Part shown: positions 197 through 5,575 of the stretch, one piece after another
How positions within the stretch are numbered: the stretch's first letter is position 1
How the letters are laid out: the number at the start of each line of letters is the position of its first letter
Notes under the pieces: model-generated
Database searches by the model: none
Told to the model about the DNA's origin: nothing
Seen by the model: the letters and a program-made list of their open reading frames with translations, nothing else
From: Halieaceae bacterium
GTDB taxonomy: Bacteria; Pseudomonadota; Gammaproteobacteria; Pseudomonadales; Halieaceae
Assembly: GCA_002691565.1 (NCBI GenBank)
Contig: NZIH01000046.1
Span: forward strand, 4,625-10,199
Length of the DNA: 5,575 nucleotides
Reading direction: 5' to 3'
Made by a program: the position numbers and the translations under genes

Positions 197-1129
197 TTAG
201 CTGCCACAGTTCTCCGGTAACGCACTCTCACTAACGACCAAGGCTTTATAGAGCGACTTAAGACGGTCCACCATAGGACCCCGCTTCGTATGTGCCATGG
301 TTCGACCATCCACTTCGAAAACGGGTGTCAATCCCGCGAACGTGCCTGTGACGAATGCTTCGTCTGCGCCGTATACCTGCATGAGCGAGAAGTTCTTTTC
401 AAACACGGGAATGCCGTTGGCTTTACACACGTTAATGACATTGCGCCGTGTAATACCATCGAGGCAATAATCACCGGATGAAGTCCATACCTCGCCGTCG
501 CGCACGATAAAGAAGTGCGTCGAGTTACAGGTGGCAACATGCCCGTGAGGATCTAGCATCAGGGCTTCGTCATAGCCCGCTTTAGCCGCCTGAATGCAGC
601 CGAATATACAGTTCAGTTTTGAGTGGCTGTTAATTCTCGGATCCTGCACATCGGCATACCCACGCCGCGTGTAGACCGTATACAGCCGAAGTCCCCGATC
701 ATTGAGACTCGGATCAGGCGCCTTGTATTCGGGGATGATGACAATGGTGGGGCCGCCAATCGTTACGGCTGGATCCTGATACGGAGTCGATTTAGTTCCG
801 CGGGTGACCATGAGCCGGATATGCACATGATCTGTCATTTGATTCGCCTGCAGTGTCTGGAACAAGCGATCACTCAATTCCTGCTGTGATAATCCCATAT
901 CGAGGTCGAGCGCCTTGGCACCCTCCCATAATCGTTTGAGATGGCGTCCGAGGAAGGGAATGGCACCCTCATGCACGCGCAGTCCTTCCCAGATACCGTC
1001 ACCCAGAATAAAGCCGCTGTCGAATACTGAAATCGTTGCCTGCTCGCGAGGAATCAATTCACCATTAATGTTGATGAGTATCGATTCGTTACGATTATCG
1101 GGGGCATAAGTATGAGTACTGTTCGCCAT
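197..1129 (-). CDS. Class-IV PLP-dependent aminotransferase (BCAT / D-amino-acid aminotransferase fold)
   Basis: The 310-aa product has the usual length of fold-type IV aminotransferases, which move amino groups between an amino acid and a 2-oxo acid in the cytoplasm. Visible landmarks, in order: the INGELIP start strand (21-27), the DSGFILGDGIWEGLR segment (37-51), an Arg at 66 in the H-x-x-R-L motif expected near the PLP phosphate, Lys171 in INSHSKLNC as the Schiff-base lysine, a GITR phosphate-binding motif (225-228), and TGT (261-263) before LTPV. The usual glutamate that contacts PLP N1, in the VxEGxxxN motif, appears replaced: the text reads HVATCNSTHFF, with Thr200 at that place. The start at 1129 is supported by a strong AGGAGGAG nine bases upstream. 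The gene is followed after one base by a sulfotransferase-like gene. In plants the two domains are fused in BCAT-like proteins. The substrate cannot be read from the sequence; a branched-chain, aromatic or D-amino acid are all possible. Confidence 0.9.
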   Translation of the reverse strand: MANSTHTYAPDNRNESILININGELIPREQATISVFDSGFILGDGIWEGLRVHEGAIPFLGRHLKRLWEGAKALDLDMGLSQQELSDRLFQTLQANQMTDHVHIRLMVTRGTKSTPYQDPAVTIGGPTIVIIPEYKAPDPSLNDRGLRLYTVYTRRGYADVQDPRINSHSKLNCIFGCIQAAKAGYDEALMLDPHGHVATCNSTHFFIVRDGEVWTSSGDYCLDGITRRNVINVCKANGIPVFEKNFSLMQVYGADEAFVTGTFAGLTPVFEVDGRTMAHTKRGPMVDRLKSLYKALVVSESALPENCGS

Positions 1130-1431: not shown

Positions 1432-4400
1432 ATGAATTCGATGACACGGATCATTTCCCGAGCACTGGTGGCCAGCCTGCTAGTTTTTATCGCCGCATGT
1501 TCCGACAGCGGCGACGGTGTTCTTTACAGCGGCGATCTGCCGAGTGCTCCTGAAGCGAGCACACCAGCGCCAGAACCATCACCCGGCAACATTGTCGAGG
1601 TGGCCACTGCAGCAGGAAGCTTCCCTACGCTGCTGGCAGCCGTTGAGGCCGCTGGACTAGCGGATGCACTGTCAGACGACAGTGCTTCACTGACCGTATT
1701 TGCACCAACTGAAGCAGCATTTGCGGCTCTGCCTGAAGGTACTCTTGATGCCTTGTTGGCAGACCCGGAAGCGCTCGCGAATATCCTTACGTACCACGTG
1801 CTGGATAGCGAAGTGGGCGTCGGCGCCGCACTTGATCTCGCGCCAACCACGGTAGCCACCTTGCAAGGTGGTGATATCGCGCTGACCAAGCGAGATGACG
1901 ACTATCTCTATGTCAACCTTTCTCAGGTCGTTGACTACGATATCGAAGCATCAAATGGTGTTATCCACGTCATCGACTCTGTGCTACTGCCACCCGATCT
2001 GACACCTTCCACAATGACGATTGCTGAAATCGCCCAAGCGGATGGTAACTTCGATACGCTGGTTACAGCACTTACCGCTGCCAATCTGGTAGGCACTGTT
2101 AATGATCCCGACGCATCACTGACAGTCTTCGCCCCAACAGATGCTGCCTTCGAGGAGCTTGGCGAAGCAGCCGTTAACTACCTGCTGAACAATCTTGAAA
2201 TTCTCGAAAGCACCCTGCTCTACCACGTAGTGGCAGGTGCCGAGCTGACTTCTATTGACGCCATTGCTGCGACGGGTACGTCGCTCGTAATGGCAAATGG
2301 CGACGAGGCTACGATTTCTCTCGGTGAATCAGGTCTGATGATTGAAGGCGCCAACATTGTCACCACAGACATCGTTGCTTCAAACGGCATCATCCATGTC
2401 ATTGACGTTGTACTTGAAGCGCCGAGTGCTGTAGCAGCGCCGCTTGCTGTGACACTGGCCGCTGACGGTTCATTCTCGACGCTGTCAGGGTTGATCGAAG
2501 AAGCTGGCCTGGCTGACGAGCTAATGGATCCTAATGCCAACATGACCATCTTTGCGCCTACTGACGATGCATTCGCCCAGATGAAGGCTGCTGGTATGTT
2601 CACCAAGGTCCTCGGTAAAGAGACTGGCGAGCACCTCGCTGACTTCACTACCGGTTCATTCGGTGATGCGGTTGTCGATCCAGAAACTGAAACATACACC
2701 TTCCCCACGGGTGCTCAGGACTGGGCCGGCTTTGCCAACAACGCCGACATTTACCCTCTGACCTTTGAAGAGGGCGGATCAATTACATTCACCGCGTCGG
2801 CAGCCACGCCTACGAACGTGCGCTTCCGGTTTGAATTCCTGCCCTTCCCTGATGTAGATCCGTCCTACGACACGGAACAGGTACTCATCGACAGCACGGA
2901 GCCAATGGAATACACCATTGAGATTCCATCACAAGGTGAGAACACGTTCTCATCATTCCTGCTCTACATCGTTGAGCGTGATCAACCAGTGATGGTCAGC
3001 AACGTTGTCGTCAGCAATGACACAACGCCGCCACCCGAGCCCGATGCGGAGCTGGTTAACCTCCTTGCCTATCACGTGTATGGAGACACCGTGTATTCAG
3101 GTGATGCGATAGCGCTCGATGGCAACTCTATCGAGATGCTAAATGGCGAAATGGCAGATATCTCTGTTCAGGATGGCAACTTGTTCATTAATGATGCGCG
3201 TGTTGTCACCGCCGATATTGCGGCCGGTAATGGCGTGATTCATGCCATTAACAAGGTGCTTTCTCTGCCAGGAGGTCCTACGTCAGTTGTAGCGGACTTC
3301 ACGACTGGTGCGTTTGGTAACGCAGTCGTTGACGCGGAGACAGAGACCTACACCTTCCCGTCGGGCGCTGAACCTTGGGCTGGCTTTGCAAATAATGCAG
3401 ACATCTTCCCAATCTCGTTCCCGGAAGGTGGCTCCATTACCTTCACGGCATCGGCGGCTGTTCCGACAAATGTTCGCTTCCGGTTCGAGTATCTGCCCTT
3501 CCCTGATGTGGATCCAGCCTACGACACGGAGCAAGTGCTGATTGATAGCACCGAGCCCATGGAGTACACCATCGAGATTCCATCTCAGGGTGAAAACACG
3601 TTCTCCTCGTTCCTTCTGTACCTTGTGGAGCGTGACCAGGCTGTCACCGTTAGCAATGTCGTTGTAACCAGTGGTGTTGAGCCCGAGCCCGAACCACCGG
3701 CTAACGCGGTTATGGCTGACTTCACAACCGGCGCATTTGGTAACGCAGTCGTCGACGCGGAGACAGAAACCTATACCTTCCCATCAGGTGCTGAGGGTTG
3801 GGCAGGCTTTGCTAACAACGCGGACATCTACCCATTGACGTTTACTGATGGTGGAACCCTGACGTTCACAGCTGCCGCAGATACACCGACACAGGTCTAC
3901 TTCCGGTTCGAGTATCTGCCCTTCCCTGATGTGGACCCAGCCTACAACACGGCGAGCGTGACTATTAACAGCGCTGAGCCCACTCAGTACAGCATCGACA
4001 TTCCATCGCAGGGCGAGAACACGTTCTCCTCCTTCCTGCTGTACATTGTCGAACGCGATCAACCTGTCATGGTCAAGGATGTGATGGTTGCTAGTGCTGA
4101 AGCCATGGAAGCGCCGACGAATGATGCGATTGCGGATTTCACAACAGGTGCTTTCGGCAACGCAGTGGTTGATGCTGAAACCGAAACCTACACGTTCCCA
4201 TCAGGTGCTGAGGGTTGGGCTGGTTTTGCTAATAATGCGGACATCTACCCACTGAGCTTCCCTGAGGGTGGTTATGTTACGTTCACCGCTTCTGCTGCGG
4301 CAGCGACAAATGTGCGCTTCCGGTTCGAATTCATGCCGTTTCCTGATGTAGACCCGGCTTACGATACAGCGAGCGTTCTGGTCGATAGCACCGAAGCAAT

Positions 4401-4530
4401 GGAATACACCATTGAGGTGCCATCTCAAGGCGAGAACACCTTCTCCTCGTTCCTACTCTATCTGGTAGAGCGTGATAGCCCAGTCACAATCACGAATGTT
4501 GTGGTATCGAGCTACATCCCAGCGGAGTGA
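1432..4530 (+). CDS. Large FAS1-domain lipoprotein with four copies of an unassigned ~127-aa module
   Basis: The 1032-aa product starts with a lipoprotein signal peptide: Arg6 and Arg10, a hydrophobic core, then the lipobox IAAC with Cys23 as the lipidated residue. Ser24 at +2 predicts outer-membrane sorting. A Pro/Ser/Glu-rich linker (24-52) follows. Three fasciclin domains come next: FAS1-1 (~53-188), FAS1-2 (~194-331) and FAS1-3 (~338-402 plus 538-613). Each shows the H1 motif (T-V/I-FAPT, at 88, 231 and 372), a YHV motif (121, 264 and 547) and the H2 motif (NG-V/I-IH, at 175, 318 and 600). FAS1 domains mediate adhesion in many organisms. A ~127-residue module occurs at 403-529 (inside FAS1-3), 621-747, 762-888 and 901-1027, joined by Pro/Glu-rich linkers. 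Invariant pieces include ETETYTFP, WAGFANNADI, PFPDVDP and PSQGENTFSSFLLY. The protein is very acidic and its only cysteine is Cys23. The ATG is preceded by AGGA at 1421-1424, seven bases away. A cell-surface adhesive or carbohydrate-binding role is inferred, not shown. Confidence 0.9.
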   Translation: MNSMTRIISRALVASLLVFIAACSDSGDGVLYSGDLPSAPEASTPAPEPSPGNIVEVATAAGSFPTLLAAVEAAGLADALSDDSASLTVFAPTEAAFAALPEGTLDALLADPEALANILTYHVLDSEVGVGAALDLAPTTVATLQGGDIALTKRDDDYLYVNLSQVVDYDIEASNGVIHVIDSVLLPPDLTPSTMTIAEIAQADGNFDTLVTALTAANLVGTVNDPDASLTVFAPTDAAFEELGEAAVNYLLNNLEILESTLLYHVVAGAELTSIDAIAATGTSLVMANGDEATISLGESGLMIEGANIVTTDIVASNGIIHVIDVVLEAPSAVAAPLAVTLAADGSFSTLSGLIEEAGLADELMDPNANMTIFAPTDDAFAQMKAAGMFTKVLGKETGEHLADFTTGSFGDAVVDPETETYTFPTGAQDWAGFANNADIYPLTFEEGGSITFTASAATPTNVRFRFEFLPFPDVDPSYDTEQVLIDSTEPMEYTIEIPSQGENTFSSFLLYIVERDQPVMVSNVVVSNDTTPPPEPDAELVNLLAYHVYGDTVYSGDAIALDGNSIEMLNGEMADISVQDGNLFINDARVVTADIAAGNGVIHAINKVLSLPGGPTSVVADFTTGAFGNAVVDAETETYTFPSGAEPWAGFANNADIFPISFPEGGSITFTASAAVPTNVRFRFEYLPFPDVDPAYDTEQVLIDSTEPMEYTIEIPSQGENTFSSFLLYLVERDQAVTVSNVVVTSGVEPEPEPPANAVMADFTTGAFGNAVVDAETETYTFPSGAEGWAGFANNADIYPLTFTDGGTLTFTAAADTPTQVYFRFEYLPFPDVDPAYNTASVTINSAEPTQYSIDIPSQGENTFSSFLLYIVERDQPVMVKDVMVASAEAMEAPTNDAIADFTTGAFGNAVVDAETETYTFPSGAEGWAGFANNADIYPLSFPEGGYVTFTASAAAATNVRFRFEFMPFPDVDPAYDTASVLVDSTEAMEYTIEVPSQGENTFSSFLLYLVERDSPVTITNVVVSSYIPAE
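2638..3018 (+). repeat. Module copy 1 (residues 403-529), inserted within FAS1 domain 3
   Basis: This copy starts ADFTTGSFGDAVVD and ends near VVVSN, followed by the linker DTTPPPEP. It sits after the first part of FAS1-3 (FAPTDDAF at 374-381 and a helix ending near 402) and before the ELVNLLAYHV segment that normally follows directly. The C-terminal half is almost the same as copy 2: both carry TEQVLIDSTEPMEYTIEIPS. The N-terminal half differs from the other three, for example Asp for Asn at the GDAV/GNAV position and TFPTGAQDW instead of TFPSGAE. Confidence 0.85.
3292..3672 (+). repeat. Module copy 2 (residues 621-747)
   Basis: This is the first of three tandem C-terminal copies. It begins directly after the end of FAS1-3 (HAINKVLSLPGG at 604-615) and is followed by a VEPEPEPPAN linker. 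Its N-terminal half groups with copies 3 and 4 (GAFGNAVVDAETETYTFPSG), and its C-terminal half with copy 1. It has Phe for Tyr in NADIFP. A 36-base stretch (3477-3512) is identical in copy 3. Confidence 0.85.
3715..4095 (+). repeat. Module copy 3 (residues 762-888)
   Basis: This copy lies 141 codons downstream of copy 2. It keeps all the invariant blocks but is the most divergent in the middle, with FTDGGTLTFTAAADTPTQVY where other copies have EGG and TNVRF. Bases 3900-3935 are identical to 3477-3512 in copy 2. It shares GAEGWAG and the TASV block with copy 4. It is followed by the linker AEAMEAPTND. Confidence 0.85.
4132..4512 (+). repeat. Module copy 4 (residues 901-1027), C-terminal
   Basis: This last copy ends only five residues before the stop (YIPAE), so the module itself forms the C-terminus. 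There is no additional sorting or anchor domain. It shares a 25-base identical stretch around the TFPSGAEGWA codons with copy 3, but uses different synonymous codons elsewhere. That indicates duplication followed by considerable silent divergence under protein-level constraint. Confidence 0.85.
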
Positions 4531-4547
4531 TCGGAATACCAAATCAG

Positions 4548-4572
4548 AAGGCGGCCAATGGCCGCCTTTTTT
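4548..4572 (+). terminator. Intrinsic (Rho-independent) terminator of the FAS1 lipoprotein gene
   Basis: A perfect 9-bp stem, AAGGCGGCC pairing with GGCCGCCTT, closes a three-base AAT loop. The stem ends in a run of six T (4567-4572). It begins 17 bases after the stop codon at 4528-4530, in the right orientation. On the opposite strand the stem is preceded by A residues but lacks a good T run (only TT follows), so it acts mainly for the plus-strand gene. The remaining ~160 bp up to 4735 show no convincing gene or second terminator for the convergent minus-strand gene. Confidence 0.93.
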
Positions 4573-4735: not shown

Positions 4736-5575
4736 TTACAGACCGTTTCGGGTCTTCACTATCTCATCGGAGTTAGCCGGCATCGAGAAACTCACACCAT
4801 CTCGACCAACTGTGTAGTCCGGGAAAATATCCTCAGCTCCGTTAAGGAAAAGAAGCTCCTGACCGGGGATCACGAGCGGCGGCACGATGTGGTAATACAG
4901 TAGGTGGCCGACCCCCGCATCTCTCGCAGTCTCGGCTGCTTCTTTGGGACTCGCGTGGTAATCCAAGATATCAACCGTGATTTTTTCCATGACAGCGTTA
5001 CCGTTTCTAGCGGCTGCGGCATTCATCATCATGACGAGGTTGGGCGCTAAGGCCTCATGCACTAACAGATCAACGCCTTTTGCGTGCTGCTCGATCACAG
5101 CGGACTTATCGGTGTCTCCAGTGATGAGTGCTGTGCGTCCCTTATAGGTGAATAAGTAGCCTACAGCCGGGTCCACTGGAAGATGGTCAACGCCTAACGC
5201 ATCAACCGTTAAGCCGTTGGCTTCAAAAACACGTGTCAGTTGTGCATCAACTGGAAGAGGGAAAGGCTGCGCTGTTAAGCCCGCAGACTTAAGGGGCGCC
5301 ACCAAGTCGCCGTGGTGCTCATGGCGATACGCAAAGTCATTTGAATACGCCATGTTGAAACCTGCGACTACCGTCTCAACACCTGATGGACCGTAAACGG
5401 GGAGTGGTGCTGGATTCGATCCCGCAGCCCATCGAATGGTTGCCATCTCCCCAAGGGTGTCGATGTGATCGGAGTGGAAATGAGTAATAAAGACGGCCGT
5501 TATATCTCCCACCTGATAGCCCATACGTCCCAAATTCCGGACTCCATCAGTACCAGCATCCACAATGAAGAGCTG
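4736..5575 (-). CDS. MBL-fold metallo-hydrolase (RNase Z / AtsA-like), N-terminus beyond the window
   Basis: The frame is open from the window edge to the TAA at 4736-4738, giving 279 visible residues starting QLFIVDAGTDGVRNL. An in-frame GTG at 5563 lies inside the conserved IVDAG strand and is unlikely to be the true start. The metallo-beta-lactamase motif THFHSDHID (31-39) supplies His32, His34, Asp36 and His37. Further metal-ligand candidates are His131 in DHLPVDPAVGY, Asp154 in ITGDTD, and His229 in YYHIVPP. The LLVHEA segment (170-175) and the spacing of these motifs fit the RNase Z/AtsA-type subgroup, which contains tRNA 3' processing nucleases and arylsulfatases as well as many uncharacterised hydrolases. 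I see no long flexible arm insertion like that of RNase Z, so a small-molecule hydrolase is more likely. The substrate is not determinable. The missing N-terminus probably carries a signal peptide or the first strands of the fold. The gene is convergent with the lipoprotein gene. Confidence 0.85.
   Translation of the reverse strand, partial: QLFIVDAGTDGVRNLGRMGYQVGDITAVFITHFHSDHIDTLGEMATIRWAAGSNPAPLPVYGPSGVETVVAGFNMAYSNDFAYRHEHHGDLVAPLKSAGLTAQPFPLPVDAQLTRVFEANGLTVDALGVDHLPVDPAVGYLFTYKGRTALITGDTDKSAVIEQHAKGVDLLVHEALAPNLVMMMNAAAARNGNAVMEKITVDILDYHASPKEAAETARDAGVGHLLYYHIVPPLVIPGQELLFLNGAEDIFPDYTVGRDGVSFSMPANSDEIVKTRNGL

Follow-up and report, generated by a model that had tools for sequence, protein, structure and literature searches.

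The window analysed here, 5,575 nucleotides of a Halieaceae bacterium (GCA_002691565.1, contig NZIH01000046.1, positions 4,625 to 10,199 of the forward strand), contains a gene for a 1032-residue protein in which the third fasciclin (FAS1) domain, FAS1-3, is split by a copy of the repeat module that also forms the C-terminal part of the protein. We consider it probable that FAS1-3 was interrupted by the protein's own module, predicted to be a jelly roll like those of carbohydrate-binding modules (CBMs), that the two halves close around it, and that the copy was inserted as approximately one repeat period. The gene is organized as follows.

1432..4530, forward strand: whole gene (1032 amino acids) with a lipoprotein-type signal, FAS1-1, FAS1-2, FAS1-3 split by module copy 1, and three tandem modules, from the translation
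1432..1500, forward strand: signal peptide with a lipobox-like FIAAC up to Cys23, read by eye under the lipobox rule
1582..1992, forward strand: FAS1-1, residues 51-187 (Pfam PF02469, 118.8 bits over residues 51-189)
2008..2421, forward strand: FAS1-2, residues 193-330 (PF02469, 96.6 bits)
2443..2637, forward strand: N-terminal half of FAS1-3, residues 338-402, including the variable loop 382-402 (PF02469 profile 2-42, 39.1 bits over residues 334-402; trees; model)
2638..3015, forward strand: module copy 1, the nested one, residues 403-528, with a predicted jelly roll like those of CBMs (sequence, predicted fold)
3016..3045, forward strand: Pro/Glu-rich linker 3' of the nested module, residues 529-538 (sequence)
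3046..3270, forward strand: C-terminal half of FAS1-3, residues 539-613 (PF02469 profile 53-121, 57.3 bits over residues 539-612; trees; model)
3292..3669, forward strand: tandem module copy 2, residues 621-746, which with copy 1 forms a direct-repeat pair flanking the C-terminal half of FAS1-3
3715..4092, forward strand: tandem module copy 3, residues 762-887 (sequence)
4132..4509, forward strand: tandem module copy 4, residues 901-1026 (sequence)

The motifs FAPTDDAF (374-381), AELVNLLAYHV (539-549), and NGVIHAINKVL (600-610) were found in the translation of 1432-4530 where the original prediction had placed them, and the interruption after residue 402 was borne out. FAS1-3 therein carries FAPTD, YHV (547-549), and NGVIH (600-604), the conserved FAS1 motifs. 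The proposed start of the insert at residue 403 held, and its end was moved from residue 537 to 538, giving an insert of a 126-residue module and a 10-residue linker. The joined halves scored 98.2 bits against PF02469 over profile positions 2-121 of 123 (cut-off 22), which is close to the score of the uninterrupted FAS1-2 and lower than that of FAS1-1. Each half alone also exceeded the cut-off, and the two were complementary in the Fasciclin profile. The claim that FAS1-3 had lost nothing proved too simple, as the stretch from DDAF to LVNLL is approximately 7 residues longer than in FAS1-1 and FAS1-2. The stretch 382-402 was identical between the window and genome G074, and between the window and G060, which were the furthest apart of the pairs examined, it was the least conserved part of FAS1-3 (53% over 17 residues).

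The four module copies, each of 126 residues, start at residues 403, 621, 762, and 901. Copy 1 was 86.5, 76, and 81% identical to copies 2, 3, and 4 in protein sequence and 74, 72, and 74% identical in DNA sequence, respectively, and the nested unit of module and linker (136 residues) was near the array spacing of 139-141 residues, in agreement with the proposed likeness of the inserted unit to the C-terminal tandem unit including its linker. The module was predicted to fold as a beta-jelly roll, with CBMs as the best fold matches; it differs from the aligned structures (CBM29, CBM36, CBM6 of LamC, CBM4, and CBM22) in its low identity to them, approximately 6-17%, and in matching no CBM family of Pfam. 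Other jelly rolls, including the gingipain adhesin domain 3m1h and toxin domains, also matched the predicted fold. Scans against Pfam and NCBIfam did not place the module in a described CBM family: copy 1 alone matched no Pfam family at E up to 1, copy 2 gave weak DUF matches only, and the NCBIfam scan of the module protein returned matches only under the cut-off. The under-cut-off matches inside the modules were to DUF4073, plastocyanin, SusE, and others. Assignment of the module to a Pfam family was rejected, the whole protein scoring 25.1 bits for DUF4073 against a cut-off of 28.8; DUF4073 is present in the precomputed Pfam list of window-like proteins. The precomputed lists of two such proteins, P0106 and P0103, add PF14292 (SusE) and PF26955, and SusE fell under the cut-off when P0106 was rescanned. 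A 1872-residue protein from the same order (L112 1131-6746, G353) has five such modules in line, some of them spaced by other sequence.

The original prediction that FAS1-3 closes into one domain around the module was supported by AlphaFold2 in a second job, in which the two halves took the FAS1 fold, matched to FAS1-4 of TGFBIp. The alignment for this job included 43 of 112 candidate single-FAS1 proteins (138-166 residues), a subset taken because the full set was misaligned in most of the settings tried. Alignments that placed FAS1 rows onto the module (A2 and A4, the latter judged by its conserved columns) were left out of the fold prediction. The FAS1-3 halves are accordingly predicted to fold as one domain around the nested module, resembling known FAS1 proteins in their match to the PF02469 profile and in their modelled fold. 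They differ from FAS1-4 of TGFBIp, which aligns over an unbroken range (505-635, 131 aligned), in being separated by a unit of 136 residues.

The locus was compared in 140 genomes of the family, and the nested form was found in seven of them (G000, G057, G058, G060, G065, G074, and G098; G058 and G060 are single-contig assemblies). Two neighbouring genes were used as synteny anchors.

197..1129, reverse strand: divergent upstream aminotransferase of branched-chain/D-amino-acid type (all NCBIfam matches under the curated cut-offs)
4736..5575, reverse strand: downstream metallo-beta-lactamase (MBL)-fold hydrolase, continuing past the window end (RNase Z-like matches under the cut-offs)

Both genes flank the nested forms wherever the contig is long enough (L032, L034, L035, G058, and G060). 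Homologues with a FAS1-3 free of the insert were found in G064 and G071. The intact FAS1-3 of G071 (L077/L042, G071:C68) adjoins the same aminotransferase, and the protein leaves the contig in the apparent start (14 residues, by eye) of another module type, here termed GTW, which matched no Pfam family in a Pfam scan. G064 has an intact FAS1-3 and three modules; of its aminotransferase, only 42 residues are present where the contig ends, approximately 3.3 kb away. In trees of 30 domains from 10 proteins, the N-terminal half and the C-terminal half each grouped the window FAS1-3 with FAS1-3 of G064/G071, and insertion into an intact domain is thus the simplest history. The interpretation that a copy was transplanted is supported by the agreement of the split halves, the intact relatives, and the half-trees; the module copy was likely inserted into a FAS1 domain that relatives keep intact, apparently as about one repeat period. 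FAS1-3 shows a nested architecture, with a discontinuous host sequence, one predicted fold, and relatives lacking the insert. At the same locus in G070, G091, and G076 (L054, L056, and L058), the protein has no FAS1-3 and consists of two FAS1 domains and three GTW modules; both anchors are present in G070, where they surround this protein, and in G091, and the aminotransferase is present in G076.

A protein search found 467 proteins, of which 120 were listed, the listing being biased towards the insert because the query contains it. Of these, 116 were nested, three lacked the C-terminal half of FAS1-3, and one (P0111) began inside the module; 49 (P0001-P0049) matched the window at 99-100% identity within the query region.

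The ratio of nonsynonymous to synonymous substitution rates (dN/dS) was computed for six pairs. Between the window and G074, it was 0.035 for the N-terminal half and 0.015 for the nested module, and the C-terminal half was 92% identical in protein sequence, its synonymous sites being saturated. The pair of G098 and G065 gave 0.050, 0.046, and 0.086 for the N-terminal half, the nested module, and the C-terminal half, respectively; between the window and G060, the synonymous sites of the nested module were saturated. The split domain and the nested module are under purifying selection.

A module tree was built from 89 modules of 24 proteins. The nested copy of the window was 92-95% identical to the nested copies of G098, G074, and G065, compared with 76-86% to its own tandem copies. 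Elsewhere, the nested copy was close to its own array (P0103, 99%; P0106, 97-98%; P0116, 98%; P0102, 82-97%), and that of P0100 was 99% identical to the next copy and 58-61% to later ones. These high identities indicate that the nested copy was repeatedly, not always, overwritten, and the homogenisation of the nested copy by the array (concerted evolution) is seen at the protein level. P0114 corresponds to P0100 with exactly 220 residues removed, a length equal to the nested-to-tandem spacing (915 of 930 residues identical), with a breakpoint that can be placed anywhere in residues 395-526, essentially within the module. Recombination of copy 1 with copy 2 would produce such a protein and remove the C-terminal half of FAS1-3.

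The module is also attached to carbohydrate-active enzymes, namely GH16 and GH81 proteins. A survey of GH16 tails in 12 genomes found three GTW modules in G000, G058, G064, G065, G070, G091, and G098, one GTW module and a part in G076 (949-residue frame), and two to four modules of the window type in G060, G071, and G074; the GH16 frame of G057 is a 382-residue piece with no readable tail. The tail of the G000 enzyme (L118 1232-5002, G000:C65) was compared with L054, L056, L058, and L053 and was 68-76% identical over approximately 490 residues to the GTW tails of the FAS1 proteins of G070, G076, G091, and G103. The two tail types can thus replace each other in enzyme and lipoprotein, the best, albeit indirect, hint of a common glycan target.

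Several observations weigh against the favoured reading. The module matched no CBM family in the Pfam scans, and the GH16 enzyme of the window's genome has modules of the GTW type. Since a jelly roll by itself says nothing on function, and the gingipain and toxin jelly rolls matched as well, the module may instead be a protein-binding or cell-cell adhesion domain that does not bind glycans; we regard this as unlikely given that the module is found repeatedly on GH16 and GH81 enzymes, that it interchanges with the other tail module between GH16 and the lipoprotein, and that its best fold matches are CBMs. Further, the first AlphaFold2 job, whose alignment had no uninterrupted FAS1 rows, left FAS1 unfolded, and the closed FAS1-3 model depends on alignment rows without the insert. 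In the closed model, confidence in the module dropped (block means 36-86), and the predicted template modelling score (pTM) of 0.50 means that the relative orientation of the domains is not given. FAS1-3 is dispensable in some lineages, being absent in G070, G076, and G091, and three of the 120 listed proteins (P0114, P0115, and P0118) lack its C-terminal half and have modules 1 and 2 adjacent. These three could be assembly collapses of near-identical repeats. The unfolded halves of the first job and both groups of variants would fit a string of beads in which FAS1-3 does not close, its halves are tolerated spacers, and module 1 is a further bead; we judge this rather improbable, the second job having closed the halves into one predicted domain.

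With respect to the history of the insert, the insert-free G071 is the sister of the insert-bearing P0103 in the FAS1-2 tree, so that loss of the insert in G071 or its spread by recombination is possible. No clear target duplication was found, the best short direct repeat near the junctions matching at 9 of 12 positions and not lying at corresponding places of the two junctions. Homogenisation was also not universal, as the nested copy of P0120 was 65% identical to its tandem copy. P0120 is a hybrid of the tail types, with the nested module, one tandem module, and two GTW modules. The FAS1-3 segments could conceivably be remnants of two different FAS1 domains flanking the module by chance, as tandem FAS1 copies would allow half-domain fusion; this is contradicted by the half-trees, both of which go with FAS1-3 of G064/G071, and by the complementary profile ranges, and we consider it very improbable. 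Misassembly of a repeat copy into FAS1-3, to which repeats and a 69-contig draft such as the window genome are prone, is ruled out for practical purposes by the insert in seven genomes of the genus, including the two single-contig ones, and in 116 of the 120 listed proteins.

In the likely mechanism, the lipid-anchored FAS1 chain, which is probably held at the cell surface, would serve as a scaffold and the modules as glycan-binding heads, most likely for a storage beta-glucan such as laminarin. Three heads would lie in line at the C-terminus. The nested head, which two linkers join to the FAS1-3 loop that follows the FAPTDDAF segment and precedes the helix ahead of YHV, would be kept near the scaffold as a side branch. 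It also stays in recombination contact with the array, by which it is overwritten, and a crossover with the first tandem copy would delete the C-terminal half of FAS1-3.

CBMs nested in enzyme loops have been described. In GH10 xylanases (Xyn10C type, Pm25), CBM4s are nested in the catalytic barrel (PMC7848910), likewise in a loop of a folded, sequence-discontinuous host domain of a glycan-degrading system. There, the host is an enzyme instead of FAS1 and carries two CBM4s, and the passages of that account on these enzymes mention no nested copy that has sequence relatives arrayed in tandem within the protein. In SusG alpha-amylase, CBM58 is similarly nested in a loop of the GH13 B domain, where it was argued to act independently (cited in PMC7848910); the host is again an enzyme, and CBM58 is an established CBM family distinct from the present module. 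Among titles and abstracts of the open-licence PMC literature searched, none described a CBM-like module inside a FAS1 domain. A FAS1 domain is here predicted to take a whole foreign domain in one loop with its fold kept. As intact, nested, and partly deleted forms coexist in close relatives, one can trace how a discontinuous domain arises and is lost. The findings further suggest a display of CBM-like heads on FAS1 scaffolds in marine bacteria of the Luminiphilus type, with exchange of these heads between the scaffold protein and GH16 enzymes.

A second nest was found in a sensor-histidine-kinase-related gene of G074 (L049/L061 609-2654, G074:C136), which contains one array period of approximately 139-141 residues in permuted form: the last third of the module, the linker, and then the first two thirds. 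It lies between membrane segments predicted by eye and thus probably in the sensor part, making the kinase a possible glucan sensor. The kinase orthologues of G058, G063, and G070 are without the module. P0241 (1036 residues, 98% over the region; HisKA and HATPase above the cut-off) has it at the same site and in the same register as G074, as do P0245-P0247 (59-60%), and the kinase nest is therefore real and old. One in-frame stop precedes the kinase part in the G074 copy, and P0241 is free of stops. Among the sequences compared, the nearest arrays were those of P0102 and P0119 (approximately 70%), and the 12 bases preceding each junction matched at 8 of 12, too weak for a claim. Tentatively, and with more doubt than confidence, the tandem array might donate mobile units, with unrelated genes of the clade taking up single periods in frame; a period in linker register would give the FAS1-3 nest, and one in shifted register would give the permuted kinase nest and a glycan sensor, while nested and tandem copies, as direct repeats, would then erase half of the host domain.

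Directly 3' of the stop codon of the FAS1 gene, one further feature was read by eye.

4550..4572, forward strand: terminator-like hairpin GGCGGCCAATGGCCGCC followed by a T run
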